Below are positions 342 to 43,506 of a stretch of 64,000 nucleotides of DNA, one piece after another (the stretch's first letter is position 1; each line of letters opens with the position of its first letter). The stretch is from Antedon mediterranea (Eukaryota > Echinodermata > Crinoidea > Comatulida > Antedonidae), in assembly GCF_964355755.1 (NCBI RefSeq), contig NC_092675.1:3382312-3446311 (forward strand). The letters are read 5' to 3'. The notes beneath the pieces were generated by a model. The model was not told the origin of the DNA, did no database searches, and saw nothing but the letters and a program-made list of their open reading frames with translations. Position numbers and translations under genes: made by a program.

Positions 342-493
342 CTTTCGTGCAGAAAACGTGTAGCTTATTCGAGTCGGACGTTAACCGTGTAATAGCTGGA
401 TACATCCGAGATATCCGTCATGGAGATAAACGCAGAGAATACCGGGCTTTGAAGTTGTCTATGGCCGAGTGTGTCCGGAATACATTTAATTGA
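342..493 (+). CDS. Alternative terminal exon 1 of tandem array
   Basis: Exon with acceptor cttcctgctag, two leading bases (CT) that complete a codon begun upstream, 49 whole codons and a TGA stop. The core reads VNRVIAGYIRDIR, followed by a basic stretch. It is a close paralogue of the next exon, with which it shares AF-x-QKTC at the start. A poly(A) signal AATAAA lies at 627-632, so it can act as a terminal exon. If the shared upstream exon ends in G (as all 22 exons allow), the first residue is Ala. Product and family not recognised. Confidence 0.8.
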
Positions 494-791
494 AAAATGT
501 GTAATTCATTCATTGGGTTGTTGAAATTAGCTGTAGGGTACTTTTTAGTACAGTTTTATGGTCATTGGTATATTATTGTTTTAATCAACTGTATATGGAC
601 AAATAGAGCAGTGATATTTTATTGTGAATAAAAATGAATTTTGAAGAAAAAACAAATGTTGAACAAATATTGGATTATTTTTTTAATTCATGTAGCTTTA
701 AATCCAGCCCTTTAACTTTGACCTTAGACAATTTCAAAGCCTGACGCACTATGACCTTTGGCCTGACACGCTACTCTTTTCTTCCTGCTAG

Positions 792-961
792 CTTTCATGC
801 AGAAAACGTGCCAGGAATCTGAATCTGACAGTAACCGAATGATAGCGGGATACATCAGAGATATCCGCCGAGGCTACCGTGCTCGGGCTTTGAAGTTGTT
901 TACGGCCGAGAGCGTCAGCTCAAATGACTTGCCAGCTCACTATTACTATTCATTCAACTAA
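792..961 (+). CDS. Alternative terminal exon 2 of tandem array
   Basis: Same acceptor (cttcctgctag) and phase as exon 1; 55 whole codons then TAA. The core SNRMIAGYIRDIR is nearly identical to that of exon 1, but the C-terminal tail diverges and ends in a Tyr-rich segment (HYYYSFN). Conservation of frame with divergent nucleotides and tails suggests selection on the core. Function unknown. Confidence 0.8.
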
Positions 962-2457
962 GCAAGGTCAAGGCTAGCTGTAGAAAATAATAGTTTTAAT
1001 ATTACTAGTACAGTGGAGCCTTAATTTGAAAAATTGTACAATATTTGGCTTGTTTGTATGTTTAAATTGAGGTTCCACTAGATAGATTTTAGTGCTGAGT
1101 GTATGTAACCATGGCAACTATTAATACAAAAATACCAAAGAAAAAATTATAGTTCTAAAAGCTTTTAATATTTAACAATAACATACAGTAAATAATGTTT
1201 ATTATAAAAAATATGGAATATATTTCAATTTTGTAACTAAAAAATAGATATTTTTTATCATCACTATGCTGATAATTATTAATATAATAATGCCTCGTTT
1301 TTGGCTTCTTTTATTCATTTTACCACATAGTTTTTAATCCATTTGGTTAAAATTGCCAAATTTTATTTGTGAAATGAGCATGTGTTGTTAAATTGTATTC
1401 AAAATTATCATTATACAGTATTTTTTAATTTGTATTAATTTTAAAAATTAAATTATTATTTCTACTGTACAGATGTCGTAGCATAGCTTTTAAAAACTTA
1501 TCACGATATTCCCATTACTATTTTACCAAACTGTGTGTTCTTGCGGTATGATAGTATGTCTGAGATTGTTTTTTTTTCTGTTTTAGAATTGTACATAAAG
1601 TATAGTATTTTAAATCATAGATTTATAGTTTTTATACTCTGTATTATATGTTCAAAATAGTTTTTCAAACTATAATACTGTATATTTGGGAATGTGTTTT
1701 ATTACAGTAGGTAACTGACTTTCCAAAATGTAGAGGCTATTCTGAATGCTTATCTAGGATCTAAGTATGTCCAAAGCTGAAACCCTCCCTGTTTCTGCCC
1801 AAACAAATTAAAAACCAGTTCTCGTCTAGTTTTTGTCTTGTACTTTTCGGTTGATTGTACTATAGTAGGCCTACAGTGTCGAAATGCAGTATATCATTTT
1901 GTGCTTTGTTATTCTGTGAATGTAAATTCATCAAAATGAATTATATTATAAGACTGTACTTATTGAATGACTAGATTGTAGACTTTAAATACTAACTTAT
2001 TATAAAACACATTATAAATACTGACTAATTATTATAAAACACATGCAAACTAAATATAAGATTCTTGTGTAAAACTATAAATTAAATATTCAGATTTGTT
2101 TTAAAATAAAAATCTTTTAATAATCAAATCATTTCGATATGCTACAATGTACAATAATTACAATTGTATATAGCACAGTGTCTACAGTTTATAACCGCTC
2201 TTCTATTTAAAGAAATGATATTTTATTATAATATAGGTGATACTACTGTAGTTATGCACTTAATTTAGGTCTACATAAACACAAAATAATGCAGATTTTA
2301 TTAAAATTAAAAAACCATATTTTAATTGTAAATTTAATTATTAAACAAAAATGTGTGATGCAAGTGTGGAATCAGTTATGATTATAAACGAAGCTTTAAT
2401 AGCCAATTCCAATATTTTCTACAATATTATTGAGAGATGCCCTCTTTTTCATAACAG
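962..2457 (+). other. Intron between cassette exons 2 and 3, no gene seen
   Basis: About 1.5 kb of AT-rich DNA. I looked for further acceptor-plus-core exons and found none. An acceptor-like site near 1586 is followed by an open stretch with no core motif. Many short TACTGTA/TACAGTA-type words occur. Confidence 0.4.
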
Positions 2458-2621
2458 TGTACGTGTCAACGAAACATGGTCTGCCAGATCGCAGGCGAAA
2501 TTTAACGCAATGCGTCAGTGATTATATAGGACATGTGCGTACTTCACTGCAGAACAAACAGCGGCGCACACAGGTCCTTAGTGAAGCTGCCAATTTGTAC
2601 AATACGGTTTTTGAATCATAG
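2458..2621 (+). CDS. Alternative terminal exon 3 of tandem array
   Basis: Acceptor ttttcataacag, leading TG (a Val codon if the upstream base is G), 53 whole codons, TAG. The core is RRNLTQCVSDYIGHVR. This founds the larger LGPP-type subfamily of exons 3-12, although here the turn reads GLPDRRR. The tail is longer and polar (QNKQRRTQVLSEAANLYN). An AATAAA at 2809-2814 follows, with a T-rich context. Confidence 0.8.
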
Positions 2622-3175
2622 TCAGCGAACTTGTTACAGGTGCTGTATAGACTCCTTCCTATATTCAACTATTTTTAGTAGTATCTTTTGTGCCAGTTTG
2701 TGCCAATTTTATTTTTTTTTTGGATTCTGGTCCATACTCTTTTGTGAATGTTTTATTTTTATTTGTTTTAAACCGAGAGAAAACGAGAGGGAGAAACTCC
2801 CCACTGAAAATAAATCAATTTGATGGTAAATAAGTTTGTAATCGCCTTATTTTTCACATTTTTAACGATTTAAAGAGTTTTAAAAGTTATCTCAGTACCA
2901 TATAGTATTTATATTTAGATTAATGTAGTTTGTGACCTTAACTTAGATCTAAAAAAAAGGTAGGCAAAGGGTCTTTAAATAAATTAATTTTGAATATCTA
3001 CACTAAGTAATGCATACTCTTGAGCTGTAAGACTGAGTGACATTGTGCTCCCTCTGGGGTCTTAATGCTATCTATACAATTGACTAAAATTAATGGAAAA
3101 TTCCGTAAAAAATCATATTGACACAAAATATAAAGACAAGCATCAAGTAATCGTGGCTATTATGGTGTTTTACAG

Positions 3176-3303
3176 CCTTCGTCATATCGGTGCATGGTCC
3201 GCCCAAACGAAGAAACTTAAATCAATGTGTAAGCGTCTACATAACAGATGTACGGATAGCACTCCGAAGAATTATGCAGAAACGTGGGATGGATGGCGTG
3301 TGA
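3176..3303 (+). CDS. Alternative terminal exon 4 of tandem array
   Basis: Acceptor ggtgttttacag, same phase, 41 codons, TGA. Encodes FV-x-S-V-H-GPP then RRNLNQCVSVYITDVR and a basic tail ending GMDGV. It opens the tightly related block of exons 4-11, which also share about 34 bp of intron directly upstream of the acceptor. Confidence 0.8.
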
Positions 3304-3761
3304 GATTTAGAAACTAATGGAAATGCAAAATCTCTACCTAGTCTACAGAAACTGGAAATAGACATCAAATTGACTTTGTTTCATCTTTAAAAAAATGTTC
3401 ACAAAAAGCTTTGACAATCAAATGTTTAGCATGAAATTCCACATCATTGATTCCTTGCTACCTTAGTTATACAATTTATTTTTTATTTAATTTATTTGAG
3501 ACAATATTCTTTATATTACACAGTACTTTTTTGTTCATCCACATCCCTTAGAACTGTTGAAATACAGTTAGTATTTAGTTAGGATGATTTGAAGAATATG
3601 GCTGTTGCGTATTATTACTAAGGTGAAAATAATTTTATTTGTGGAAATCTATGCTTTCTTCTTCCATCTTTTCAACATAATTAACTAATTATAATAAATT
3701 TCAAGAAATATTTTGAAACTTCCAATCATCAAGTAATCGTGGCTATTATGGTGTTTTACAG

Positions 3762-3895
3762 CCTTCGTCATATCGATGCATGGTCCGCTCATCGGAGGAA
3801 AGTTGAATAAATGCGTAAGCGTCTACATAACAGATGTACGAATAGCACTTCGAAAAATTATGAGGAAACATGGGATGGAGAATATGTACTTGTGA
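3762..3895 (+). CDS. Alternative terminal exon 5 of tandem array
   Basis: Acceptor ggtgttttacag, same phase, 43 codons, TGA. Core GGKLNKCVSVYITDVR. The usual GPPxGRR turn is altered to GPLIGG. Flanking intron DNA on both sides is homologous to that around exon 4, so the repeat unit (about 590-610 bp) includes intron. Confidence 0.78.
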
Positions 3896-4372
3896 GACTT
3901 CGCAGCAACTGGAAATGTAAACGAAACTTTCTCTACCTAGTCCAGGAAAACTAAAAACAGACATCAAATCGACTTTGTCAAATACTAACAAAATATTCAC
4001 GGAAACGCTTTGATAATTAATAGTCTAAAATGTTTAACAGAAAATTCATCTTATTGATTTCTTACTACCGTAGTTATAAATGTATACTAAAATTGATTTA
4101 TATTTGAGACGACATTTTTAATATTACAATACATACAGTACTTTTTTGTTCCTTTACATCCCATTAGACCTGTAGAAATGGTACAGTAGTATTTGGTTAG
4201 GATTCTTTGAAGAATATGTGACTTATAAATAGTGTGAAAATAATCTTATTGTGGAAATCTATGTTTCTAAATTTTCAACGTGATTAACTTTATTTATAAC
4301 AAAATTCAAGAAATATTTGTCAAAATCACAATCATAAAATCAAGTAATCGTGGCTATTGTGGTGTTTTACAG

Positions 4373-4509
4373 TGTGCGTCATATCGGTGCATGGTCAACC
4401 CGACGGCAGAAGAAACTTAAATCAGTGTGTTAGCGACTACATAACAGACGTACGGACAGCTCTTCGAAAAATCATGCAGAAACATGGAATTGAGGGCGTG
4501 TACTATTAA
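4373..4509 (+). CDS. Alternative terminal exon 6 of tandem array
   Basis: Acceptor ggtgttttacag, leading TG, 44 codons, TAA. Core RRNLNQCVSDYITDVR, tail basic and ending GIEGVYY. AATAAA at 4761-4766 could terminate this transcript form. Confidence 0.8.
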
Positions 4510-5200
4510 ATATGAAGCTGAAGGAAAATATAGAAGAAAATTTTCTCAACCTAGTGTAATAATAACCTTGAATGACTTTCGCCATTAGGCTAACAAAGGA
4601 AACTGAAAATGTCAACCAAAACTGCTCTGAACATTATTCGCTGAATCTTCTACAAATACTGGGACATACGATAACATTGAGAATCTATAACCAAGGTGTT
4701 GCGGACACTTGCATGTTATGGCGCATTGTTGCTGTTACAATCTCTTGACCGATGGTGTCAAATAAATAAATGAAATGAAAACACTGTTTTGCTGATGATA
4801 CTATAATGCTCAGGAGAAGATTTGATCGTTTTATTCATATAAATATTGTACTTTTTAATTAAAATCAAATATTTGACTACAGTACTACACTGTACTTTTA
4901 AGTATATTTTGGACCATAATATTTGTGTTGCGTTCTATTTTTATATTAATTGTTTTTAATTGATATTTTTAACATACTTTTCTCATTGGAAGCTTATTCA
5001 ACAACAATTTTGTAGTAATTAGTGTAAAACTGACTGATTAAATTTACAGAATAAGTGAACATTTAGAGAGGTGAAATATTTTATTTTAGTGTTTTCCCAT
5101 TCCAATTAACTTTTGTTATAAATTAATAAAAATCTTACAGTAACAAATTCATTTTTATTGGCACACAATCATAAAATCAAGTTATTGTGGTGTTTTACAG

Positions 5201-5334
5201 CCTTCGTCACGTCGTTGCTTGGTCCACCTGACGGTAGAAGACAGTTGAATCAATGCGTTAAAGACTACATAATTGATGTACGAACAGCTCAGCGAAAAAT
5301 TATGCAGAAACGTGGAATTGAATGCATGTACTAA
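5201..5334 (+). CDS. Alternative terminal exon 7 of tandem array
   Basis: Acceptor ggtgttttacag, same phase, 43 codons, TAA. Starts FVTSLLGPPDGRRQ; core LNQCVKDYIIDVR. The upstream conserved intron word is shortened (the 'aatcgtggctatt' part is partly deleted). Confidence 0.8.
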
Positions 5335-5859
5335 ATGTATGAGACTTGTTAGATAATAGAAACTGAAACCAATTCTTGGCCTAATCGAAGACTAAACCAA
5401 ATCGGTTCTTTCACAGAATTTCTTTTATAATAAGATTTTACAGGAAAACACTACAATATACTAATAATACTTATTAGACTAATTATACTTATTAGACTAA
5501 TTATGTCACAGAGACAAGATTCAGACTGACAACGTTTTAGACAAACACTACAGGCTTCGTTTATTTGTAATCCCATAAAAAAAAATAGTTTTTCTGTAAC
5601 ATTCAGAAAAAAATTCATAATGGTAGAGTGTGTTGTATCAATTCGTTCCCACATATATATATCGCTTTTTGACCATATTTGTGTTATATTCAATTTTTAC
5701 TTTTGGATTCGATTACTTTATTACACATATTAGATTGAAAGTATTGGAACTAAAATCAGATAGTGGTTAGGATGAATTACATTTAAGAGATTATATGTTT
5801 TCAACATAATTTTTATTGTCATAAAATCAAGTAATCGTGGCTATTGTGGTGTTTTACAG

Positions 5860-5981
5860 CCTTCGTCACAGTAATGCTTGGTCCACCGGAAGGCAGAAGA
5901 CAATTGAATCAATGCGTTAGCCTCTACATAACAGATATTCGAAGAGTTATGAAGAAACATGGGATGGAGGGAATGTACTAA
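5860..5981 (+). CDS. Alternative terminal exon 8 of tandem array
   Basis: Acceptor ggtgttttacag, same phase, 39 codons, TAA. Core RRQLNQCVSLYITDIR. Relative to exons 7 and 9 it has lost 12 bases (four codons) just after the core, an in-frame deletion that keeps the downstream KKHGMEGMY ending. Frame preservation argues for function. Confidence 0.8.
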
Positions 5982-6504
5982 ATGTGAGGCTACTACTAGC
6001 TAAAAGGAAAATGTAAAGAAAATCAAAGAATGTCAACCAAGTCTGCTCCATCAAGTCCTAAATATTGTAGCCAATAATAAACAAGTCATAGTACTGTAGG
6101 AACTTTTTAAAAGTGTACGTAATATTGTGAGAAAATAGTACCACAGGGACTATAGTGAAATCAGTACATGTACGCATCATTGATGGTATTTGCAAGTCTA
6201 GTTCACAATTCTCTGGGAAAGATTCATACTGCATCAATTTAAATTCTAAAACAACAATACTTATTTTTCATTTATATTTCTGTATTAAATGGACCATATT
6301 ATTTCAATTTTCCCTTTAAACGTATATTTTTCATTAGATTCTAACACACCCTAGAAAACTGTTGTTTTTTTTAAAAATAGTATGTATAATTATTTGAGAG
6401 AAATTATTTCATTTTTTTTTTTAAGTTATGTTCAAGTTTTCAAGATTATAATTAATTTTAGATAATGAAAATCAAGTAATTATGGCTATTGTGGTGTTTT
6501 ACAG

Positions 6505-6638
6505 TCTTTGTCACATCGTTCCTTGGTCCACCTGACGGCAGAAGAAAGTTATCTCATTGCGTTAGCGACTACATAACGGATGTACGAAGAGCTTTACGAA
6601 ACATTATGAAGGGTCGTGGAATTCAGGGCGTGTACTAA
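6505..6638 (+). CDS. Alternative terminal exon 9 of tandem array
   Basis: Acceptor ggtgttttacag, leading TC, 43 codons, TAA. FVTSFLGPPDGRRKL, core SHCVSDYITDVR, tail RALRNIMKGRGIQGVY. AATAAA at 7056-7061. Confidence 0.8.
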
Positions 6639-7198
6639 ATATGAAAGAAAATGTTCAAATATTGTGAGAAGAAAGCTGCCTGAAGAGAATGTTTGAAAGG
6701 ATGACTAATTTTATTCTGATGGTGCTAATTGATGTTTGGTGGAAGTATTTCTCAAAACCTGCTCTTATAAATATTTCAGGAACAAAAATGACATTATTAT
6801 CAGGGTCTACAGTAGTCAGTAAAACTAGTTCATGCCACAGAGACCAAGAGTTACAGTACATAGGGTTGTGAATATAGTACTTAGAAAATTGCTTTATTTT
6901 GTCTGAATTCTGTAGTGTTATAAAGTAATGTTGTGCCACTTGTTGGATACGGTACATGTTAGTCCATTTGTGTGATTTTTATTATTTTATTTGATTGATT
7001 TTAAACACATTTCATACAGTACAATTCAAAAAATTGTTTCCAATTATGTTGGAACAATAAATGTTAGGCCTTTAAATTCAGATTGAGAGGTAGAAATATT
7101 AATAGATTTTTTAAATTACAATATCTAAGCCAACAAAATTGTAATATTAGTTGCCAGCTTGTTAAAGTAGTAATCGTAGCTATTGTGGTGTTTTGCAG

Positions 7199-7344
7199 CC
7201 TTTGTCACAGTGTTGCTTGGTCCGCCCGATGGCAGAAGAAAGTTGAATGTGTGCGTTAATGACTACTTGACGGATATACGAACAGCGCTCCGAAAAATTA
7301 TGAAGAAACGTGCTATAGGGATTGAGGGCGTGTACCAAATGTGA
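7199..7344 (+). CDS. Alternative terminal exon 10 of tandem array
   Basis: Acceptor ggtgttttgcag, same phase, 47 codons, TGA. FVTVLLGPPDGRRKL, core NVCVNDYLTDIR, tail TALRKIMKKRAIGIEGVYQM (a two-codon insertion before GIEGVY, and the former TAA has become CAA). Confidence 0.8.
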
Positions 7345-7699
7345 AGTTTACTAACTGAAAACATAAACAAAATTTTGCCAACCAAGTTAAAAATAAAGCA
7401 TTATAAAGGAACTATTATTGCGAGAGTATTGTTTACGCAAAGTGCTTCATCTTTTTGAGAAAGAAGAATTTCTATACAGTGTGGTTTTGCCAGAAAGGCC
7501 AGTAACAAAAAGCAAAGAACACTGCGAAATTTTATGTTCTTTATTAAGAAAACTGTTTGGTCCATTTATGTAACTATTTATTTTGCTTTTTTTTTGTCAC
7601 TTACCGTACAGTTTTGTAGAAACAATTTTAACTAACTTTTAAAATAATAAAATCGAACTAATATTTCAAAGTAATCGTGGCTATTGTGGTGTTTTGCAG

Positions 7700-7848
7700 C
7701 GTTCGTCACACTGTTGCTTGGTCAGCCCGACAGGAAAAGAAAATTGAATGCGTGCATCAACGACTGTATAACAAATACACGTACATCGCAACGTCACATT
7801 ATGAAGAAACAAGGACTTCTGCAACAAAATGTGGATTTTACTACGTGA
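7700..7848 (+). CDS. Alternative terminal exon 11 of tandem array
   Basis: Acceptor ggtgttttgcag, same phase, 48 codons, TGA. It is the most diverged member of the exon 4-11 block: core KRKLNACINDCITNTR replaces the Tyr by Cys and the final Val-Arg by Thr-Arg. It is still open to a normal stop. Confidence 0.7.
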
Positions 7849-8467
7849 AAATAAAACTGAATCTGAGAATACTTTTTACTATAAACCTGTCTGCAAATGT
7901 AAGGGAACAATTTGGCTTCAGTGGTAGAGATTGTGCTTGAAAGAACAAAGCAATGCTTTTTAAAAAAACTGCGATACAATAATTGTCTAAATATGTTAAC
8001 ATGTGTTTCATTGTCATGACGAACAAACTAAGTTGAGGCAAACAGTACAGGATTACTTGCTTAGCAGTATCGCTTTTAACTTGTTTATTTATTCTGTTCA
8101 AAGATTGTAGTTAACTGTATGTGTTACATGTACATTCGCTTTGAGTTCTTGTTGCTTAACCCATTAGCCAGTTGAATTCAAGTTCCAATTCTCTTCTTTC
8201 TCGTGTTTAACGCAAATCATGTATGTATAGTCTACTAGCAGTAATAGTACTTTTTTGGTTGCAAACAAAAATGATTCCCTTTTCGCTTTATGTTACGTTA
8301 TGTTTTCTAATACTGTACAGTAATGTCAGGCCTTGTATGTATATCACATAGATTTTAATTGTTAAAATGTGTGTTCGTTATGTCCAACCAGCAGCTGACG
8401 AGATACCTTTCTTAAATTTAAAAGACTTTAGTAATATATGCTGTTTTGTATCTTTCACCACTGACAG

Positions 8468-8613
8468 AGTTTGTAGATAATAGTCTTGGTCCAACAAGTA
8501 CAAGGAGAAATTTAACTCAGTGCATCAGTGACTACATAAGGTCTGTTAGAGTTGGCCTACTGAATAAAACGAGACGAGGACACAACAACCTCAACGTATG
8601 GTACTCCTCTTAG
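8468..8613 (+). CDS. Alternative terminal exon 12 of tandem array
   Basis: Acceptor tttcaccactgacag, leading AG (Glu if the upstream base is G), 47 codons, TAG. NSLGPTSTRR then NLTQCISDYIRSVR; tail basic. It most resembles exon 3 rather than its immediate neighbours, so exons 3 and 12 bracket the young exon 4-11 expansion. Confidence 0.75.
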
Positions 8614-9041
8614 GTAGGATAGACATTTTACCATTGCGGTCTGCGGTTAGATTCATAGGTAAGGAAAAGGGGGAAATGAGCAATATCAGGCTTGGTTTAG
8701 GACTAGGTTGTGTTTAAAGGCATAGTGTAGTATTATTTTTGAAAGCCTCTCGGACGGATCAACGAGGATGTAGTCGGAGTGGTGTTTTCCTTCAGCATTG
8801 TATCGGACATGTTAGGGTTGTGAATTTTTTTAAGATCAGGGACAATTTGATTTGTGGGTTCATTAATAGGAATCACTACTTTGATAAGGGTTCTCTTTAA
8901 AAATGTAATGATTACATCCATGTGACACAAATCAAATATACTATTTAAAATTTAATATTGAGTGATTTTATCCCATTTCAGAAATTATAATTATTTATCA
9001 GATATGATCTATGATATTTAGTGTCTATTATGTCTGAAACA

Positions 9042-9276
9042 AACTTTACTCGACCAATGGTATGATTTATCAGATTCTTGATGTTTGATTCACCAATAAT
9101 TTGCATATATGTAAATTAGTCCAGGTGTGATTTTTTTATATGCTTTAAATATTAAACTTAATATTTTTAGCCAGACTTTACTTGATCAATGAAATTCGGC
9201 ATGATTTTGATTACGGTAATTGTTAAAGATTAATTTACCAATAATTTGCATATAATATGTAAATTAGTCCAGGTGT
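9042..9276 (+). repeat. Two-copy tandem duplication in intron
   Basis: A segment running from 'actttactcgaccaatgg' to 'gtaaattagtccaggtgt' (about 9042-9127) is repeated in diverged form at about 9174-9276. Both copies end 'ttagtccaggtgt'. No coding content seen. Confidence 0.5.
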
Positions 9277-9323
9277 TCTTTTTTTTGGTTCTAATACGGC
9301 TTTCCTTTTGCTTCTTTATGCAG

Positions 9324-9463
9324 TGTTCGTCCGGTCCCTTTTTGAGGTTACCACCAAACAATTGAACATTGTCATCAAAAATTTCATATTCAGTGAAAAG
9401 CGACGACGCAAAGGAAGGCTTGGAATGCTCTATGGAACAATGAGTGGGAATTGGTTAGATTAA
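9324..9463 (+). CDS. Alternative terminal exon 13 of tandem array (diverged)
   Basis: Acceptor cttctttatgcag, leading TG, 45 codons, TAA. FVRSLFEVTT then KQLNIVIKNFIFSEKRRRK. The layout (hydrophobic start, short linker, K/R-x-L, amphipathic helix, basic end) matches the array, although the Y-I-x-D-V-R core is changed to F-I-F-S-E. It groups with exons 14 and 15. Confidence 0.68.
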
Positions 9464-10007
9464 TATAGCAGGGTCTAATTTGCATAATATTACATTTAAA
9501 GTATATAAACAGTTTGAGATTAAAGGCAGAATATGTTTTGTACCATAGGAGGTTATATTTTGAATTAATGTTACAAAATAGGTTGTCTTAAAATGAAACT
9601 ATTCTACTGCTGCTAGGTACTGTTTTAATTTGTGTTTTATTAACTGAGTGAGAGAGCGTTTTTAATATTCGAAAAGTTTTAGAAGAGAGTTCCAATGTTC
9701 ATAAGTCTTTTTACCATTTTTTTTATCGGTTTCAATTCGTGTTGAATTCAGTCTTTCATTCAGTGATTAATTATTTCTATTTCTTGTTGAAGTTAAATTT
9801 TGTATTGATTTATTGTATTACCATAATTCTAATAAATAATAATGTATATTGGTGATTATATTTTTGCTTAATCAAATTATAAAAAACCTTTATTCATTAT
9901 CAAATGATGTATTATGTCAGTACATAACTGATACTGACTGATACGCATGTCAGTAAAAATAGATTTTTAAAAAAACCATAACCATTTCGCCAAGCAGATT
10001 ATTCTCG

Positions 10008-10192
10008 GTGGCGTAACGGCTATGATCGCTCACAGACTAAACCCAGAGGGCCTGGAGATTATGAGGCCCCTGAGCAGTGCAAGGCATTAAAATATGTCGA
10101 AACGGGCTAAAAACGCCAGAGGCCTCCAGCGTTGGAGGGCCACTTAGGGTTCCTAAACCAGGGGCCTCGGGCCTCTGCGTTGCGCCACTGAT
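10008..10192. mobile_element. Short MITE with GGCGTAACG-type ends
   Basis: The left end (ggtggcgtaacgg) and the inverted right end (gcgttgcgccactg) are imperfect inverted repeats around ~160 bp of GC-richer DNA. The CAGTGGCGYAACG terminus resembles hAT-type non-autonomous elements. No ORF. Confidence 0.4.
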
Positions 10193-10245
10193 TGTGCTGT
10201 ACGTAGCCAGATTTTAATGTTAGTTTCCTTCTCCTCTTTATATAG

Positions 10246-10364
10246 TGTATACCCAGCTAGTCTTTGCAGTGGCTACAACTAAGTTGAATACTATCATCAA
10301 AGAACGAATATTCAACGTAAGACGGCAGTTAGAAGCGTCACATGGCTCGTATCAAATGTATTGA
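10246..10364 (+). CDS. Alternative terminal exon 14 of tandem array (diverged)
   Basis: Acceptor ctcctctttatatag, leading TG, 38 codons, TGA. YTQLVFAVAT then TKLNTIIKERIFNVRRQLE. It clearly resembles exons 13 and 15 (KLN..I.K..IF..RR). AATAAA at 11441-11446 lies before the next exon. Confidence 0.68.
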
Positions 10365-10891: not shown

Positions 10892-11515
10892 TAATAATAC
10901 AGTAATAACATGTCGTCGATTAATGTTGTTTTAATTCTGGTTAACACTCCAATGAGTTGTCCTAGTTATAGCATGTATTTTAATTTATACCACCATGTAT
11001 TAACCTCGATAATAAATTAGGATATTGACTACAAAGATAGATAACTTATCGTAGTATTAACTATTTCAACATTGTAGTATACTTGTTTTTTTTCTGTTGT
11101 TGGTTTGCGATCATAATTGTGTGTTCAGATTTTCTGCCTTTGTGATTGTGTCATTTTATAAAATGTAAATGAGGCCTATGTGATTATATATTTTTAACTA
11201 ATAATAGACTGCAACTTGTTTTAACTGATATTAAGGAGTTCCAATATGTCACATTTTAAAACAATCAATTTAATGACTGCTGGCAAAACTTGATCGTTTT
11301 AAATTGCCATTAGATATTACAATACATGTACAGAAGGATTTATTCAATTTGGAATTTCCAAGAGAGCATTTGTATATAATAAATTAAATTTGTCCAATTG
11401 TTGTTAAACTATTTTACATAAAAATGTTCAAACTTTTGTGAATAAAGTTTAAAATCGAATTAAAATAAGTTGTAGTTTATGAGATCATTTATTTCAAGTC
11501 CTCTGTGTTCTACAG

Positions 11516-11811
11516 CTTATACTCGCATCACCCACAACGTCTTAGACTCGAAACAGAACTTAAGAATCAAAGAATACATATTCACCTGCAGACGGAGTCT
11601 AAACACCAGCCTCAGAAGGGAGGAGCTGGAAAACCTGAGCTGTGGACAGTTAGCTGAGGCTGAGCAGGTGGAAGAGTCTTCTAGGAACTCAGCAAGCCTT
11701 TCTACCACCGAACAGCAATCAAGAGATTGGACGAGTCAAGAAGGGGTTGTTATTAAAGAGGAACCAAACTTTCTAGATGATTTCTATCAACTTTTTAAAG
11801 AAACTGAGTAG
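11516..11811 (+). CDS. Alternative terminal exon 15 of tandem array, long acidic tail
   Basis: Acceptor ctctgtgttctacag, leading CT, 97 codons, TAG: by far the longest cassette. It starts YTRITHNVLDSKQNL, core RIKEYIFTCRRSL, then an extra ~60-residue tail rich in Glu/Ser. The tail contains an EQVEESSRNS stretch, a VVIKEEPNFLDD segment (IKEEP resembles a sumoylation-type psi-K-x-E site) and ends FYQLFKETE. It could be the founder or standard C-terminus of the gene, because it is the only one with such a tail. AATAAA at 12654-12659. Confidence 0.75.
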
Positions 11812-13399
11812 ATTAATTATAAATTCAAGATTCTGCTTTGTTATCTTGAGTGGGACGGCTAGAGAACATTTTTGATTAGCCATAACTACTGAATCTGAAT
11901 TTGGAAAGATAGATTGTATTGCATGATAAATGATAAGGTTGAATTGTGTATAATTTGAATATGCTACATACACTGGCTAAAAATATAAAGTATTTAGATG
12001 CATGATAAATTCATATCTTTGAAATGTATTGCAATTGAGAATTCTGAGTGTACTGTTAGTGAATGAGATTTGTGTGTGTATGGTACAATGTTGATTGAGA
12101 ATTGTTTGTGAACTTTAAGAGATTATATCTTTTGTTTAGCCTGCTGTTACATTATGTATTGGATTGATGCTGTTTAATTATCATGTAATGTATCTTGATC
12201 CATATTGCATGTCTGTTAGTCTGGGCTCCAGATGGAGTTTTGTCTTAATATTAGTAAAAATATAAATATTTTGCACATATGGCGTTTCATACGTGTATTA
12301 CTTGAGTTTTCAGACAAAAATCAAAACGACGACGTGTGGAATGACATTAAAAACAGACTTGGAGCTTAAATAATTGACTACCGGTACCAAAAATTAATCT
12401 TGAATTCACCAATCATGTTTAACATTAGAATGTTAAAAGTTGTAAGGCTGTGTTCATACGTACAACGTGTAAGAATGGAAGTGACTGTTTATCTGTCTTT
12501 TTGTAATCTTGTTTGGATAAATGTACATATGTAAATTCAAATTCAATTTGGTGCTGTAATTAGCTGAACTATTGTTTAAAAAATACCACCGGCTTCCTTC
12601 CCTAATTGGTGTTATTTTACTTGTGACCACAATAACTGTTACTGTGTAATTTAAATAAAAATGAATGTATTTATATTATATTCATCTACAGAGTTATGGT
12701 TTTGTGTCATGTGCAAAGTTAAATTTAATTTGGCATCATAATCAACAAAGTAGACTCGATCAAAAATAAAATGTTCTCTTGCGTTGTTTATTTATGTTCT
12801 TATCAGGGATAATTGTTTAATGGTGCTACTAAAAGTCAGAATTTTCTGGCACCCAATGATAGTTTTTGTCTGCAAGTTCCAATATTCTATGTAGAAATTA
12901 TTATAAATGGTTTTGTAAATTCCGTAATTTGTGTCAACTCTTACTGTAATTTAGTAAAACTTTTGGTTACAATTCTGTATAAAAAGTTGTACTAGTGCGT
13001 TTTTGTAATTTTGTGTGGAAATCTGATAATTTTTCTATTGATATTAAGTTTATTGCTCTTCCTACATTTGTAAGACAACCATGTGTTGCACTACCCACAC
13101 TGCATTGCATTGATTGTACAGTTAGTATATGTGTATACTGTATTACAAACAATAAATATACACATAAAATAAATCTAAGCATTTTAACAGTGTTCTGCTA
13201 CTTGTATAGAGTATAATACTGTATATTAAAATCCCATCTTTTTTAGCACAATATACTTTACATGATTCCTCACTGCGTTATACATATTATATACTCTACT
13301 TCCAAATGATAAACTTTTACATCTTTTTGTGCCATTCACTATAATATTCATTTTAATGACAAAAGTGTTGAATGTGTCCTATTGCTGTTTTTTCTACAG
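11812..13399 (+). other. Inter-exon region, one weak exon candidate
   Basis: Mostly AT-rich, with AATAAA signals near 12654. At 12314-12369 a cag acceptor is followed, in the array phase, by 17 codons (DVWNDIKNRLGA at the end) and TAA. It lacks the array core and is not counted as a member. Confidence 0.35.
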
Positions 13400-13527
13400 T
13401 GTTCTTTTATGACCAACATGGTGTAGAGAAGTCCGAGTCGATGCGTCTTATCGGTGTGTACCTCCGCGACATCCGCAGGCCCCGGGCGAAGACAATCAAA
13501 CAATCATTCCAATTTCTCCCATCATGA
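13400..13527 (+). CDS. Alternative terminal exon 16 of tandem array
   Basis: Acceptor tgttttttctacag, leading TG, 41 codons, TGA. FFYDQHGVEKSE then SMRLIGVYLRDIRR, tail basic. It founds the YLRDIR subfamily (exons 16-19), close in core to exons 1 and 2 (GYIRDIR). AATAAA at 13591-13596, only 64 bases after the stop. Confidence 0.8.
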
Positions 13528-14177
13528 TTTTTGCTAGTTAGTCAGTTCTGATTATTTCATAAAATATTTAGTTAAATTACATTTTTTATTAATAAATGCT
13601 CTATTAGGTTGTATTATACTCCAATTCTCGTTCATTCAATAATTGTCAAAAGTATCGTTGAGCAATGGCAAGAAAGATTGATTTGTTTTCGCCTTGTGAT
13701 AAGGTTATTATATAAAGTCAGATTGAGTTGGTGGGAGGGTGTGGAGGAAGTGAGCAGTTAGAGTTGTAGAAGTAAATATTATCTAAGTCTAGCACTGGTG
13801 GTATTTGTTCTTCAAGGTTTTAATTTCCATTAATTTCTTTAATATTGGAAAGCAATATTTTAGATTCTGCTATAATCTCTTTGGATTGAGGGCGGGTAGT
13901 TGGTGATAATTAAAATAGATTGTACTACAATAAGAGATAATTTTTGCATTTTTCTTATATCCCATATTTTGTTTTTATTATGCTTTAAATGAAACAATAT
14001 CGTGAAAAATGAAGAATTCATCTATTAAAATATTTTCTACCAAAATTATGGCAGAAAATAATTCAATCAAATAACAAATTTTTTAACAAATACTTTACTG
14101 TGAATTTTATTAAAATTATTTATAATAAAATTTGTAATCTTGTTGGTGACATCCGATCTTGATATTTTTCCCAACAG

Positions 14178-14323
14178 CGTTTATTCTGAAAACGTACGCG
14201 GTAGGCAAACCGGAAACTGGTCGTATAATGGGCGTCTACTTACATGATATACGCAGATGTCGGGCCAGGAAAGCCAATCAAACAAGCGAATTTACATACG
14301 TGATTCATACGTACAAGTGTTGA
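14178..14323 (+). CDS. Alternative terminal exon 17 of tandem array
   Basis: Acceptor atttttcccaacag, leading CG, 47 codons, TGA. FILKTYAVGKPE then TGRIMGVYLHDIRR, basic RARKANQ, tail ending in Cys. The first residues (AF-x-x-KT) match exons 1 and 2. Confidence 0.8.
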
Positions 14324-14546
14324 ATGAGTTGTTTATTCATGGTTTCGTAGATTCGCAAGGTATTTCCACTGGGGAACTATGAACTGATTGTTAATATACG
14401 TCTATTATTTTTACATAATTTTTTATAATTTTTCAAAAATGTGGATTACAGTATTTGTTTCTAAAGAAAGACTGCATTACTGTATATTTAAATTCTCACT
14501 TTTTACAGTTGAACCATTATTAAAAGTAAACTTGGAGGAACCAATG

Positions 14547-15245
14547 AAGTGTCTCCTTAATAGAGGTGCACTCTGAATAGGGATTAACCAGTGTTATAAA
14601 ACATATATTTACCCTTGTTTGTTTCATAGGAAAGTGTCTCCTTAATAGAGGTGCACTCTGAATAGGGATTAACCAGTGTTATAAAACATATATTTACCCT
14701 TGTTTGTTTTATGGGAAAGTGTCTCCTTAATAGAGGTGCACTCTGAATAGGGATTAACCAGTGTTATACAACATATATTTACCCTTGAATGTTTGTTTTA
14801 TGGGAAAGTGTCTCCTTAATAGAGGTGCACTCTGAATAGGGATTAACCAGTGTTATACAACATATATTTACCCTTGTTTGTTTTATGGGAAAGTGTCTCC
14901 TTAATAGAGGTGCCCTCTGAATTGGGATTAACCAGTGTTATAAAACATATATTTACCCTTGTTTGTTTTATGGGAAAGTGTCTCCTTAATAGAGGTGCCC
15001 TCTGAATAGGGATTAACAAGTGTTATACAACATATATTTACCCTTGTTTTTTTATGGGAAAGTGTCTCCTTAATAGAGGTGCATTCTGAATAGGGATTAA
15101 CCAGTGTTATACAACATATATTTACCCTTGTTTGTTTTATGGGAAAGTGTCTCCTTAATAGAGGTGCCCTCTGAATTGGGATTAACCAGTGTTATAAAAC
15201 ATATATTTACCCTTGTTTGTTTCATAGGAAAGTATCCCCTTAATA
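14547..15245 (+). repeat. Minisatellite, ~85 bp unit, about 8 copies
   Basis: The unit starts aagtgtctccttaatagagg and recurs at about 14547, 14632, 14717, 14806, 14891, 14976, 15059, 15145, with a degenerate start at 15229. Period is 83-89 bp with few differences between copies. It lies in the intron between cassette exons 17 and 18. Short ORFs through it are an effect of the repeat, not genes. Confidence 0.9.
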
Positions 15246-15527
15246 GGGTTGTTTACTGCCTTGGTGGTTTCCCAAAGGTTCTTGTATACGCCCAGGCTTA
15301 TTATTAATCGCAACAGAGGTTGTCGACATGTGTTATAAAGATTTGCTGACGCAACCCCTAGACGGCATGTTGTCAAATAAATAAAATGAATACCCCATGA
15401 TGCAACATAAACGGAAACATTCTTTTGATGAGATTGATCAGTGATATTCCATTTGGCCTGGTTCCAGCCTGGTGATTGGTAATAAAATAATGCTTCCTGT
15501 CACTATATTCGCTTACAATAGTACCTT

Positions 15528-15682
15528 CTGACACTATCAAACTTTATGTGACAAAAAAGTGGGATGTGCCTGAATATGGTAGTGATATGCCCATGATAGT
15601 AATATGACATCATCATGTCCATATATGGGCACATCACATTTTTTTGTCACATAAAGTTTGAAAGTGTAGACAGAGCTTAAGA
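15528..15682. mobile_element. Palindromic MITE, copy 1 (AAAGCTCTGTC family)
   Basis: Contains the family's left arm (cactatcaaactttatgtga), a middle with gcccatgatag and gacatcatcatg, and a right arm ending gtgtagacagagctt. The left terminal 'aagctctgtcta' is missing. Confidence 0.75.
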
Positions 15683-16442
15683 CCAAAACAAGAATGAAAC
15701 TTCATTGTACCTTTCAAGCCTATACACGTCCTTTTAATATGTTTATTGTCAAATGTAAAAATTGTTGTGTGAAATACTGTATAGTAAAAAGTGTATTGTA
15801 TTTATCTGTTTTGTTTTATAATGAAAAGAAATCAAACAAAAGAACAGATGTTTACTAGGAAGGCCAGTGTTTTAATTGTAAATTTGTTTGGCATTGTTGG
15901 TAAACATGAGGTAGTCCACATGTAATTGTAGTAGTTTTCCATTTTGTTGGAGTCTATTGAAAATATTGTTTCTGTAGTTGAACAACATTCTGGAATTATG
16001 TCTTTAGGCTAAAAGTAGCATAATAAAACTATAACTTAATAAATCAAAATGTTGATATACCATAACACATATTTTCAATTTTAACAGAAATAAAGAAACA
16101 CCCACGTTTTCCGTAATATTGCCGAAATTAATCATGTGAAACGATAAAATGGAGAAAGTTATATGAATTTAAATAATTTTTAAAAAAAATGTTAGTAAAA
16201 TGAATTAGTTAATTGTAAATATTGAAAAAATAGCACACCATAGTAACTATTTTTAAAAATTGGGATACAAAATATGTTTTTATAGTTTTTATTTAAATAC
16301 AGTATTTTATAAATTCAAGTGATATGTTGCTTATAAATATACTCTGTTTCGTAAATATTTGTTTAAACTTTGAAGCAAAATAAATTGTTGAGAATGTGCA
16401 AAAAGTGGAAACTCTAGATTATTGGTCTTTTTTACCCAACAG

Positions 16443-16594
16443 TGTACTTTTATGTGAACTTTGCAGTTGAGATGACGGAAACGCGACGTTTGATCAGTGT
16501 CTACCTCCGTGATATACGCAAATTGCAACTACTCCAAGCGAATAAACGAGCTGAAGCGTTGTTGTTAGCGCACGGATTCGTAGAAGAACCATAA
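16443..16594 (+). CDS. Alternative terminal exon 18 of tandem array
   Basis: Acceptor tttttacccaacag, leading TG, 49 codons, TAA. YFYVNFAVEMTE then TRRLISVYLRDIRK, a Leu/Gln-rich helix (LQLLQANKRAEALLLAHG) and FVEEP end. AATAAA at 16921-16926. Confidence 0.8.
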
Positions 16595-17474
16595 ATTAGA
16601 CCTAACTGTTGCTTGTGGTGGACTTTGTTGGTATATTTAGCTTTAAAAACATTGTAAAAGAAAAAAATGTTTTTGAACAAATGAGCGGAGGAATTTGTTG
16701 TTGAACGAATCATAAAGCTGTTGTTGGTGTAGACTGTATCTATCTGTATCTGTGAGAAAACAAGCTAACATTGTAGATGTTACCGCTTAAATTCTTTAAA
16801 TACCTGTAACCATACATTTCAAGACAATTGTGGTTTAGACTTTTGTATCTGGTCTAAGAAAGACTTTAATATATTTAGTGTTTAATCCCCTATTTGATCA
16901 TTTGTATAAAATGATGCTTTAATAAATATCGTATGCATTTTGTTGTTTGTATTGTACATGAACTTATGAGGAAACTATTATATTTAGGGTGATAAGTTGG
17001 TTGTCTGCTTGTTTTTTCAAAATGTTTGTAATATATGTTGTACTGATTGATTGATTATTTGATATAGATTGATTGTTTGGTTGGTTGGTTTGATTGATTA
17101 ATTGATTGATTATTACTTGGTTATTCAATTGGCTGTTTGCTCAGTTGTTAAATCTGAATGTAGTTAACTCTCTCTCTCTCTCTGAAGGCCCTTCCATTTT
17201 AAAATTAAAACACCATAATTTCACCATTTCAAATCTCTAAACATTATATCTTTTTGAAATTTTATGATGGAAAACATTTAATTTTTATTATCATTACTTG
17301 CATTTTATATGGCTAATTTTACATACTGTACATTTGAGGATTTTCCGTTTGATTTGACATTTTTTCTTCACCATAAAATATAGATGGCTAATTTCATATC
17401 CAAACATACTTTTATATTTCATTTTCTTACATACATTTGAGGCTTTTCCATTTATTTGATATTTTTTTCTTCAG

Positions 17475-17629
17475 CATTCTTTCAAGATACATATGCAATA
17501 GACAAGATTGAGTCTCGTAGACTTATGGGATTCTACTTGCGAGATATACGTAAACAAGATGAACGCAAAACATTACGTGGACAGAAATTTGCTAAGAATA
17601 CATACATCGCCAAAAATTATTTTCAGTGA
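17475..17629 (+). CDS. Alternative terminal exon 19 of tandem array
   Basis: Acceptor atttttttcttcag, leading CA, 50 codons, TGA. FFQDTYAIDKIE then SRRLMGFYLRDIRK and a strongly basic tail (KTLRGQKFAKN). Closest to exons 16-18. Confidence 0.8.
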
Positions 17630-18863
17630 ATGATCGGCCAATGAGAGGCAAGAGTTACTATTTTTTATTTAAAACATTTATTATCGGTTCATAAAGCTAA
17701 TTTTGAAGAAAAAAAATTAATACAAGATTTTAAAAATAAACAGTAAAGCAGTTATTTTTCTTCTTGTTTTCTCGGGAAAACATGTCAGCTAACGCATTGA
17801 TAAATTATTCAGTGAAGAAACTACAATTTTTAATTATTTACTAAATGACGGCGTGAAGAGTTCAAGATGGCATTGATGGGGTGTGGTTTAGCACATTTTT
17901 GACATGTTATTTAGGTCTAGAGGAATGATGCTTTTGAAATAGTTCTACTGTAGTCATATCCTCATCACTTGGCAATATCTTTGTTATTTATTTGAACAAT
18001 TATTGTTTCATTTTCAATTCTCAATTATGAATATGAGTATCATGGATGTACAAGTCATCCATTTTAGATTCATTTCCACCTAGGCACAGTTAATTTATTC
18101 AAACCTTCCAGCTTAGTTAACCTGGTACCTGCTTAAGAAGCTGTTTCTGGTTATATTGTAACATTTTAGGTGTAGTAGTATGTTTCTGGTCATTTTATCA
18201 TGTTTGTTTTAATATTGGATTGCAATATTCTAAGCTTTTCAAGCTCTATTATTATATTCATTTTGGTTTTCCAATTTCATGATGACGTTTTCCACTGTTC
18301 ATCTCTCAGTACCAGGAAGATATTGGGTGTGGTTCGGCACATTTTAACATTAAAAAATTGTACTGTTAGAACAATTTTATATGAAACACTAATGGTTTTC
18401 TATATTCAGAGGGATTTGCTAATCATATTTTGCTGATATCATATTTTGCTGATATCATATTTTGCTGATCATATTTTCGCTGTATCATTGTACCAATAAA
18501 TACATGACTTTATTAACCATTTACAACCAAGTTCTTTGGAATGCTTAGGAGACCTTAAGAGTCATAATTTTAAAATCTGTAATTATGCTTTAAAAATTCC
18601 TACCGTAATTAGAAAGGTTTTTAAACTTTGTATGCAGGCCTACATAAAATGAGGATGTTGTTTAGATGTAAATTTGTATAATAATAAGAAACTGTAAACA
18701 TATTTATTTTTTTAACAATAATGTGATTGTGTTAGCTGCCTGTAAATTTGTAATGATTATATTACTGTGGTTTGATCTGTTTTCTAATTTTGCTAAGTGC
18801 CTTATTAAAGGTTTATATAGTATATTGTTATAATTATTAATTTTGTATTTATTCCTTCTCCAG

Positions 18864-19006
18864 AATATCTGTATCGTATGTACAATGTCAGTTTCATACA
18901 TACAGTGAAACTAATCGGCTTGCATCTCTGTAACGTAAAAAAATTGTTTCGCTTGAAAGCACGGAGACGAGAAGAGCAGTTAATTCAAGGACATTTTCCA
19001 GTTTAA
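18864..19006 (+). CDS. Alternative terminal exon 20 of tandem array
   Basis: Acceptor attccttctccag, leading AA (Glu if the upstream base is G), 46 codons, TAA. YLYRMYNVSFIH then TVKLIGLHLCNVKK and a basic RRREEQL stretch. Near-duplicate of exon 21 (identical NVSFIHTVKLIGLHLCNV). Confidence 0.8.
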
Positions 19007-19040
19007 TAATTTTTGCGATCAAAATACTTGATTCTATAAA

Positions 19041-19193
19041 GCTACACTATCAAACTTTATGTGACAAAAAAATGTGATGTGTCCATATATGCCGACATGA
19101 TGATGTCATATCAATACCATATTTAAGCATATCACTTCCATATTTGGGCATATCACTTTTTTTTGTCAAACTTGATAGTGTGGGCAGAGCTTA
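19041..19193. mobile_element. Palindromic MITE, copy 2
   Basis: Runs from ctacactatcaaactttatg to gatagtgtgggcagagctta, with internal gccgacatgatgatgtcata. It sits between cassette exons 20 and 21, just after the stop of exon 20. Confidence 0.8.
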
Positions 19194-19385
19194 ACATTGC
19201 ATAGGATTAGGATTCTAGAAAAATTGTGATAAATATCTATTAACATTGTCTGTTGTTAAGTAACTTTATTAAAGTATCGGTATTTTAACTATGAATCACA
19301 GAACTGTAACAAATATCCGGTTGATTTTATTAAGGCCAAAAATAAAATAATTTTTTTGTTTATTATATATTATTTCTTTCTCCAG

Positions 19386-19549
19386 AATATCTGTACCGTT
19401 TGTACAATGTAAGTTTCATTCATACAGTGAAACTAATCGGCTTGCATCTCTGTAATGTTCAAAAAACGTATCAAAGAAAAGTACGCAGACGAGAAGAGCA
19501 GGTAATGCAAGGACTCATGCCAGTGAAAATTGTCTACAATATAAACTAA
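19386..19549 (+). CDS. Alternative terminal exon 21 of tandem array
   Basis: Acceptor tctttctccag, leading AA, 53 codons, TAA. YLYRLYNVSFIH, core TVKLIGLHLCNVQK, RRREEQV and a longer tail ending YNIN. Several poly(A) signals follow, the first at 19798-19803. Confidence 0.8.
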
Positions 19550-21237
19550 ATATTCTATTATTAATTTGTTTGTCTCGATATTTCTTGTTGGTCTTCTGTG
19601 AGACATCAGTAAACAGTGCCTCTAATGTTTATTATTTATTGAATTATGAAATAAGATCAATATTTTTGTTTATTATTTAAACTGATCCGAACATCAGTAC
19701 AAATCCATATTATTACAATATTCATTGCTAATTTAAAGCCTAAACTAAGTTTTAATTGTTGATAATTAATTTATGTAATTTATGAAAAATGTGTGTAAAT
19801 AAATTATCTGTTTTATTTTTGCATTGTGTTTGTTTAATTTGTTGATTTGTATTATATTTTGTAAAATGTATCATTTGCCTGAATAAATAATAATAATAAT
19901 AATAAAACTCAATTTTTATTTTTATATTGTTTTATGTGTTTATTTCTGTATGTAAAACAGTTTTGATTACAGAAAAAATACATATTCTCTGTATTAAAAT
20001 GTATATGAATATAATTAATTGAACTTGAATCTTGTAGTTAGTTGAACTTACCCTAAAAATTGTGGCGGTGGTTCATGCTACTGAAAACCAGTCATTAAGG
20101 TTTTGCGATATTGGATGCAATAATTTATTAAACAGTCCTAATCTGTTTCATGAGTTTTGTGGGTTTATCAAGTCGTCCAACTCAATTGTGATTAGTTACT
20201 TTAAGAAAATTGTTTTCCAGTAAACTAAATAAGTAAATTAATCTATCACCAGTAATTAAACTATTAAAATTATTGCTAATAATTGTTTATTGCTAATAAT
20301 TGTTGATTATGACCAATGTATTTAATGTGAATATGTAAAAATATGTGAATAAAACAGTAATTAAGCTGTTTTGGTAGAAAATAAGGTATAATTCTGAGCA
20401 ATTGTAATACTGTACAAAATGTACAGTATATAGCATTTTAACCTTCCCGCATTCTCGTAAGACCACCTTTAGATGTACAGTAATATAAATATGTACACAA
20501 TTGTAAACAGAAAGTAGACTATTCCCAAGAAAATGTTTAAAAATCTATTGAAGATTTTTTTTTTTTGCATTTCTATGTATTTAATATCTCAAAAGATAAG
20601 ATAAACTTTGAATCATACTTCAGATTCATAGATGGATATACTAAAATCTCCGAGTTTATTCAGTTATTTGGGGGTGGGGGTGGGAGGGGGTGGGGGGTAG
20701 ACTTGCATCTTTTGTTTTGTTTTAAGGAGCTTGGGGATTAAGGAGCTTGAGGAGTAGGAGCTTGGGGATTAAGGAGCTTAGGGATTAAGGAGCTTGGGGA
20801 TTAAGCTCTCAACTACAACAAATTATTTTTTGTATGCATTAATATGTTTTATGATAATTTTATTGCTATGGTAATTTTAAACTATTTGATAATTATTTAT
20901 CTAATTGTTAAAATTCTGAAATACTTTAAACTGGCCATTAAAATGTATTCATGTTTCAATTGTATTTATTTTTGTACATAATTGTTTGTAATGTTTCTTT
21001 TGTGAATAAAAATAGAAAGAATAAAGAGTGATAATTTACCTCATTTGTTTATTTTGAAATAGAAATTATTTTAAAATCTAAATGTTTAACATAAAGCAGT
21101 ACAAACAAACAGTGCTAACTGATTCTCTGTACTCTAGAATTTCTAAAGTATCCATCGGCTAATTCTGTTTTTTATATGATGTGATGCATAATACAGGTGT
21201 AACATGTGGTGTGACACTGTATGTCACTGTTTTACAG
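19550..21237 (+). other. Non-coding stretch with poly(A) signals and a G-rich run
   Basis: No ORF supported. It contains AATAAA signals after cassette exon 21, a G-rich tract at 20670-20698 and a short tandem array of 'gagcttggggattaag'-like units at about 20725-20805. I could not find an upstream coding exon or start for the FKBP gene here. Confidence 0.45.
20670..20698 (+). other. G-quadruplex-capable G run
   Basis: Five runs of 3-6 G separated by single T or A bases (ggggg t ggggg t ggg a ggggg t gggggg). Such a tract meets the usual four-run G-quadruplex pattern on the + strand. Confidence 0.6.
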
Positions 21238-21374
21238 AATTTGCCTATGATATTGTACACAGTATAATGTCATATGTGCAGATACAGTACAGAGGGGACA
21301 ATGTTAGCACAGCAGGCATCACCAAAGTGATAAAGCATTATTGCAAAAATCACATTTTTATCGCGGATTATTAA
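21238..21374 (+). CDS. Probable alternative terminal exon 22 (diverged)
   Basis: Acceptor gtcactgttttacag, leading AA (Glu, as in exons 20 and 21), 44 codons, TAA. FAYDIVHSIMSYVQIQYR, then TAGITKVIKHYCKN. It follows the array layout (aromatic start, T-x-x-I/L, amphipathic helix with Tyr) but the core is weak, so membership is less certain. It ends only 42 bases before the first visible FKBP exon, which makes its relation to that gene an open question. Confidence 0.5.

Positions 21375-35886: not shown

Positions 35887-43506
<7,620 letters not shown>

Follow-up and report, generated by a model that had tools for sequence, protein, structure and literature searches.

The window of this analysis is a stretch of 64,000 nucleotides from the feather star Antedon mediterranea (contig NC_092675.1 of assembly GCF_964355755.1, hereafter C6, positions 3382312-3446311; the genome has 354 Mb in 18 contigs), and it holds the larger part of a tandem bank of terminal exons. 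We consider it about 80% probable that this bank belongs to a single BEN-domain gene, whose product would consist of approximately 510 shared residues followed by the residues of one of 28 alternative last exons (here called cassettes), and that the choice of cassette most likely sets the DNA preference of the protein. The precursor messenger RNA would be spliced from the last shared exon, exon d, whose end lies inside the BEN domain in a stretch aligning with helix alpha4, to one of the 28 cassettes, each of which is predicted to supply, for completion of the fold, a separate version of the end of alpha4, the loop and helix alpha5, together with its own stop codon. The shared part would set backbone contacts, partners and effect. 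A role of the last exon in selecting the preferred DNA sequence is likely because, in BEN domains, bases are read mainly by alpha5.

Shared exons and the cassette bank

There are 22 cassettes in the window, and all of them had been listed as exon-like segments of the plus strand, between 342 and 21374, in an earlier note made from the sequence alone. Each is located behind an AG acceptor, two bases ahead of the first full codon, and has an open frame of 38-97 codons to its own stop; all share one phase. That note had put the size of the bank at a minimum of 22 and had proposed a profile search with these members. The search recovers the 22 by construction, since the profile was built from them, and it also finds six further members upstream of the window, from -3428 to -174 (E 9.7e-9 to 0.0028). 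Negative coordinates run upstream from the first base of the window (10000 subtracted from the L001 position), and cassettes are named by their start position in the window. The complete bank comprises 28 intact cassettes of 31-97 residues, is approximately 25 kb long, and lies entirely on the plus strand in one phase. No further cassette was found by the profile at an E better than 0.28 in 160 kb upstream plus the 64 kb window (224 kb). There is in addition one decayed copy at -2456..-2327, which can still be detected at the DNA level (nhmmer E 1.1e-21) and whose frame stops after three codons.

The cassettes are homologous to one another, and were divided by eye, from the alignment and flanking sequences, into groups A (8 members), B (10), C (3), D (4) and D2 (2), plus an odd last one. 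Like cassettes adjoin one another, which is the pattern expected of tandem duplication. In the alignment, an aromatic first residue (Cys in cassette 4373) and a linker are mostly followed by the helix core Y-I/L-x-D/N-V/I-R. The absence of donor sites claimed previously is confirmed for 27 of the cassettes, whereas cassette 19386 carries two loose donor-like strings.

Four shared exons, a to d, are located 5.7-9.1 kb ahead of the window and join in frame; counting from one ATG, they encode 510 residues. This N-terminus is provisional, because the frame of exon a stays open further upstream, to L001:822. Exon d ends in AAA G|GTGAGT, and therefore leaves a G in phase 1, which is the phase required by the cassettes. 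Such a terminal G in the upstream exon is just what had been predicted from the window, together with the observation that the leading dinucleotides of the cassettes would then yield Ala, Val or Glu, and this is true of all 28. The proposed design of one N-terminal part with many C-terminal helices is thus supported by the shared exons, and we regard the anatomy of the locus as secure.

Exons a-c (429 residues) have no Pfam match. Exon d alone encodes a partial BEN domain, with a score of 26.3 bits over positions 3-45 of the 76 in the Pfam model (PF10523, curated cut-off 23.2 bits). No BTB domain was found near the gene: among the 74 BTB matches listed genome-wide, none falls between C6:3.22 and 3.45 Mb.

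The BEN domain and its predicted recognition helix

When joined to exon d, all 28 cassettes give BEN scores of 29.9-41.7 bits (median 36.7), compared with the 28.2 bits that the exon d piece reaches without a cassette; exon d is by itself over the cut-off at both of its scores. Ten shuffled cassettes joined to the same exon scored 26.6-30.6 bits (median 27.5); 25 of the 28 real cassettes exceeded the best shuffle, and each of the ten cassettes compared with its own shuffle (10/10) beat it. In 15 of the 28, the joined match reaches at least profile position 65. The BEN domain of human NACC1 aligns across the junction with an E of 5.4e-8, in an alignment made for exon d plus cassette 4373. These score gains and the alignment indicate that the junction cuts the BEN domain and that the cassette is its last part. 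An AlphaFold2 model of cassette 4373, made with 19 others of the 22 window cassettes, has a short helix, a loop and a long helix 15-37, with a predicted local distance difference test score (pLDDT) of 75 and a predicted template modelling score (pTM) of 0.45. Four cassettes searched singly against Pfam matched no family over its cut-off.

By this homology the gene product is assigned to the BEN family. The earlier note had recognised no family and had offered a BEN-like helix as speculation; the first statement no longer stands, and the second is borne out for the joined protein. What could not be seen from the window is that the junction falls within this fold: as judged from the joined matches, the cassette forms the final part of a shared BEN domain, including the predicted DNA-recognition helix, and does not make up a domain by itself.

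Sequence-specific DNA binding by the joined forms is predicted from homology. In the NACC1-DNA structure, alpha5 occupies the major groove, where D462, T465 and R469 touch bases, and phosphates are contacted by N466, R468 and R472 in alpha5 and by R400, R401 and R429 outside it; according to the authors, no helix other than alpha5 is inserted to read bases in the structures of human BEN domains (PMC11472053). On the alignment of NACC1 with cassette 4373, exon d retains the equivalents of R400, R401 and R429. Site 468 is Arg in 24 of 27 aligned cassettes (two have Lys and one Gln; cassette 21238 was left out). The base-contact sites, by comparison, exhibit 7 residue types at 462, 10 at 465 and 6 at 469, and together form 20 different triplets in the 27 cassettes. 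Among the 364 possible triplets of positions 456-469, there are only 8 as variable as this one, itself included.

The cassette frames are under purifying selection. Codon models gave omega values of 0.34 and 0.39 over the cassette core, and by site class, as assigned by us, omega was 0.18 at structural sites, 0.23 in the rest of the helix, 0.51 at base-contact sites, 0.38 in the tail and 0.53 in the first six codons. In group B the contrast between structural and base-contact sites holds, and the values were 0.13 (structural), 0.85 (base-contact), 0.12 (tail) and 1.0 (N-terminal codons), from a small set that makes them unstable. These values bear on a different explanation, namely that there is a single functional last exon and that most cassettes are defunct copies of it; the decayed copy and the side-by-side arrangement of like cassettes speak in its favour. 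Acceptor and frame are nevertheless intact in 28 of the 29 recognisable copies, despite large silent differences within groups (pooled pS 0.31-0.79 by group). In a simulation of neutral decay that started from the present cassettes, ran over 0.1-0.4 substitutions per site and counted only copies still recognisable, the probability that 28 of 29 copies retain both the AG and an open frame of 30 codons is 2e-6 or less. Wholesale decay is therefore hardly credible as an account of the bank.

Several observations weigh against our interpretation of the bank as a set of spliced alternatives with different DNA preferences. Shuffling does not abolish the BEN gain entirely, as four of the ten shuffled cassettes also scored above 28.2 bits, and 13 of the 28 joined matches stop at profile position 62 or earlier. 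A profile of 22 of the 28 cassettes compared with ten BEN sequences was not significant (hhalign probability 0.4%, P 0.14), yet it aligned in the expected register. Arg421 of NACC1, which is located in the alpha3-alpha4 loop and reads a base in the minor groove (PMC11472053), maps to the shared exon, where the alignment has Gly. The tail after position 469 varies as much as the base-contact sites or more, and the variability of these sites consequently favours selection for new specificities but falls short of proof. When all cassettes are taken together, omega at the base-contact sites stays below 1, and within group A the site classes do not separate (0.93 structural and 1.0 base-contact, with 0.62 in the tail and 0.33 in the N-terminal codons; these values are unstable for want of sites). 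The signal AATAAA is present within 450 nucleotides of 21 of the 28 cassettes, compared with 65.5% of 2000 random stretches of the window, which is hardly above background and so counts as evidence in neither direction. Furthermore, we infer from the sequence that the cassettes are spliced as alternatives, and likewise that all 28 are used, exclusively and under regulation, with differing DNA preferences.

Perhaps the bank is spliced as proposed, but its variation mainly tunes affinity, dimer partners or stability, or abolishes DNA binding to create inhibitor isoforms. Site 468 is not Arg in cassettes 9324, 18864, 19386 and 21238, and these may be unable to bind DNA, which would fit such a function, as would the strongly variable tails. 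In addition, two BANP molecules occupy one DNA, and the starts of their alpha5 helices touch each other in simulations (PMC11472053). We consider this explanation rather unlikely, given that Arg468 is otherwise so widely kept and that sites 462, 465 and 469 are among the most variable of the helix. A choice of DNA preference by last-exon choice is the reading that we retain.

Splicing signals, origin and known systems

There are two kinds of conserved acceptor stretch in the bank, one for each of the two largest groups. In group A and in eight of the ten group B cassettes, mean mismatch in the last 20 nucleotides before the acceptor is only 0.04-0.14, compared with 0.56-0.75 more than 40 nucleotides upstream and a silent-site pS of 0.53-0.56. 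In the eight group B cassettes the low mismatch extends over the last 30 nucleotides (0.04-0.23, versus 0.61-0.70 further upstream). By eye, the A stretch includes a branch-point-like CTGAC and the B stretch a TAAT, and in the latter a G/T-rich run takes the place of a proper pyrimidine tract. Conservation in the A stretch also extends to some sequence 5' of the CTGAC. Together with the survival of acceptors and frames, the conserved stretches are indirect evidence that the cassettes are used. As a guess, RNA-binding proteins might control groups A and B separately.

The same stretches could serve a different kind of joining. Cassettes might be transcribed from promoters of their own, singly or in groups, and then trans-spliced to a common donor RNA, a mechanism described for mod(mdg4) of Drosophila (PMC12692577), and a distinct conserved stretch in each group is something that such joining could use. 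All 28 cassettes, however, are on the strand of the shared exons, and none is more than approximately 27 kb away from exon d, so that splicing in cis would be enough. Moreover, the stretches directly adjoin the AG and by eye partly resemble a branch point and pyrimidine tract. We therefore judge trans-splicing to be improbable, and continue with splicing in cis from exon d.

A more ambitious version of our proposal is that the gene carries an interchangeable DNA-reading head, in which an old intron cuts the domain and the recognition helix is drawn from a library of 28 specificities, possibly enlarged by mixed dimers. Groups A and B would each be switched as a block, through factors that bind the acceptor stretch typical of the group. 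We offer this only tentatively, at somewhat less than even odds.

The intron that splits the BEN domain is probably old, because two other BEN genes of the genome are split at the same position and phase. There are 20 BEN matches genome-wide, of which 13 span nearly the whole domain in a stop-free open frame. The BEN gene on contig C9 is split at Pfam position 45 with a phase-1 G|GT, as is the C6 gene, and a single last exon found by eye completes its domain, raising the score from 28.4 to 41.9 bits when joined. The gene on C3, which we take to be BANP-like, has a BEN match of 18.9-20.1 bits (under the Pfam cut-off) that is interrupted at the same point and in the same phase; the exon that should follow was not found. 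A second bank was sought on the gene strand only, in 20 kb behind the C9 gene and 30 kb behind the C3 gene, and no cassette-like match better than E 0.35 was present. When the whole genome was searched with exon d joined to cassette 4373, 11 matches were obtained, all at the C6 locus; the reach of this search is short, as at this locus it recovers no more than ten of the 28 cassettes besides exon d, and distant banks could escape it. The special feature at C6 would thus be the amplification of an exon behind an old intron.

Two banks of Drosophila invite comparison, and the earlier note had already named both for their logic; the likeness holds for the layout, with common 5' exons, many terminal exons and one phase, and is one of anatomy only. 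There are at least 20 isoforms of lola, produced by cis- and trans-splicing (PMC1947980), and these combine common N-terminal exons with one of many C-terminal exons that bear the DNA-binding part. The C-terminal exons of lola mostly encode their own zinc fingers behind a BTB part, whereas the C6 gene has no BTB domain that we could find and would exchange the last part, with the putative reading helix, of one DNA-binding domain that is cut inside its fold. For mod(mdg4), over 30 isoforms made by trans-splicing are reported (PMC12692577), and again a bank of alternative 3' exons serves one common part. There, acceptor exons are partly on the opposite strand and have their own promoters, in contrast to the single strand of the C6 cassettes, and at C6 the exchange would concern the C-terminal portion of a BEN domain.

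NACC1 is the best match among solved structures (PDB 8yzs, 7bv9), and group B (n=10) has Asp at 462 in seven members, Thr at 465 in seven and both in four, the residues that NACC1 carries at these sites. NACC1 is described as having an N-terminal BTB domain (PMC7764960). With no BTB match nearby and a bank in place of a single BEN C-terminus, the C6 gene is not NACC by architecture. A splice site that splits a fold, part of which is then exchanged, is a likeness shared with Dscam. In Dscam, internal arrays of mutually exclusive exons encode cell-surface domains, and docking and selector sequences are complementary. The C6 exons differ in being terminal. A search for docking complements covered the intron after exon d and detected none: with the A and B stretches as queries, the longest exact complements were 7 and 8 nucleotides, no better than shuffles.

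As far as the sources above describe them, terminal-exon banks that alter the DNA-binding part of a transcription factor are already known from Drosophila. The difference here is a splice junction within the DNA-binding fold, which places the scaffold and the predicted reading helix on separate exons. Among the papers listed in a search of titles and the opening lines of abstracts, with most subscription journals outside it, there was no BEN gene with alternative last exons, which hints that a bank of the BEN type may be new. If the isoforms bind different sequences, nature has in effect tested at this locus how BEN specificity depends on a single helix, with 27 alignable variants on one scaffold that can be mapped onto a human crystal structure. 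One gene may in this manner yield many regulators with different targets, and a cell would then need a means of selecting among 28 acceptors.

Coordinates and neighbouring features

Table 1. Shared exons, cassettes and representative acceptor stretches of the C6 BEN gene, in window coordinates.
Feature	Position	Strand	Remarks
Shared exon a	-9106..-9031 (C6:3373205-3373280)	+	counted from an ATG; GT donor
Shared exon b	-8246..-7206 (C6:3374065-3375105)	+	AG acceptor, GT donor
Shared exon c	-6850..-6681 (C6:3375461-3375630)	+	AG acceptor, GT donor
Shared exon d	-5908..-5665 (C6:3376403-3376646)	+	AG acceptor, GT donor
Cassette 1	-3428..-3280	+	group A, before window
Cassette 2	-2773..-2619	+	group A, before window
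Cassette 3	-1989..-1844	+	group A, before window
Cassette 4	-1649..-1456	+	group A, before window
Cassette 5	-596..-454	+	group A, before window
Cassette 6	-174..-77	+	group A, before window
Cassette 7	342..493	+	group A
Cassette 8	792..961	+	group A
Cassette 9	2458..2621	+	group B
Cassette 10	3176..3303	+	group B
Cassette 11	3762..3895	+	group B
Cassette 12	4373..4509	+	group B; Asp and Thr at the NACC1 Asp462 and Thr465 sites
Cassette 13	5201..5334	+	group B
Cassette 14	5860..5981	+	group B
Cassette 15	6505..6638	+	group B
Cassette 16	7199..7344	+	group B
Cassette 17	7700..7848	+	group B
Cassette 18	8468..8613	+	group B
Cassette 19	9324..9463	+	group C
Cassette 20	10246..10364	+	group C
Cassette 21	11516..11811	+	group C; longest, 97 codons
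Cassette 22	13400..13527	+	group D
Cassette 23	14178..14323	+	group D
Cassette 24	16443..16594	+	group D
Cassette 25	17475..17629	+	group D
Cassette 26	18864..19006	+	group D2
Cassette 27	19386..19549	+	group D2; the one with donor-like strings
Cassette 28	21238..21374	+	most divergent; carries an insertion; BEN 32.9 bits joined, positions 3-73
Group A acceptor stretch, example	750..791	+	TATGACCTTTGGCCTGACACGCTACTCTTTTCTTCCTGCTAG; like stretches before the other seven group A cassettes (shorter before -1649)
Group B acceptor stretch, example	3146..3175	+	AGTAATCGTGGCTATTATGGTGTTTTACAG; like stretches before seven more group B cassettes (shorter before 5201)

A tandem array of 8.2 copies of an 85-nucleotide unit is located at 14547-15246, between cassettes 14178 and 16443. 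Directly behind the last cassette, at 21418-22218, there are by eye the exons of an apparent other gene on the plus strand, encoding a protein that is acidic and then basic and that matches no Pfam family over its cut-off; the first exon of this gene was not located. These exons are not a further cassette, because an acceptor read there in the phase of exon d meets a stop after a few codons. Further downstream, open frames at 38289-42553 resemble exons and by their look presumably belong to an elongation factor 2 gene; there is a GTP_EFTU match for 38845-39396.

The genome has many C2H2, BTB and BEN matches, which together with the GT/AG introns fit an animal, and no COX1 was found in the assembly. 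Elsewhere in the genome, near-identical BEN-containing open frames are present on four contigs (L024-L027, on C3, C11, C4 and C5; KMTRRLLDIMFTQEELAVSNLYG...), and these look like a recently dispersed repeat that carries a BEN domain. A BEN piece with two stops at C9:8206354-8206506 (L019) is apparently decayed. Finally, the contig of the bank also carries a dense cluster of C2H2 zinc-finger open frames at C6:20.23-20.42 Mb.

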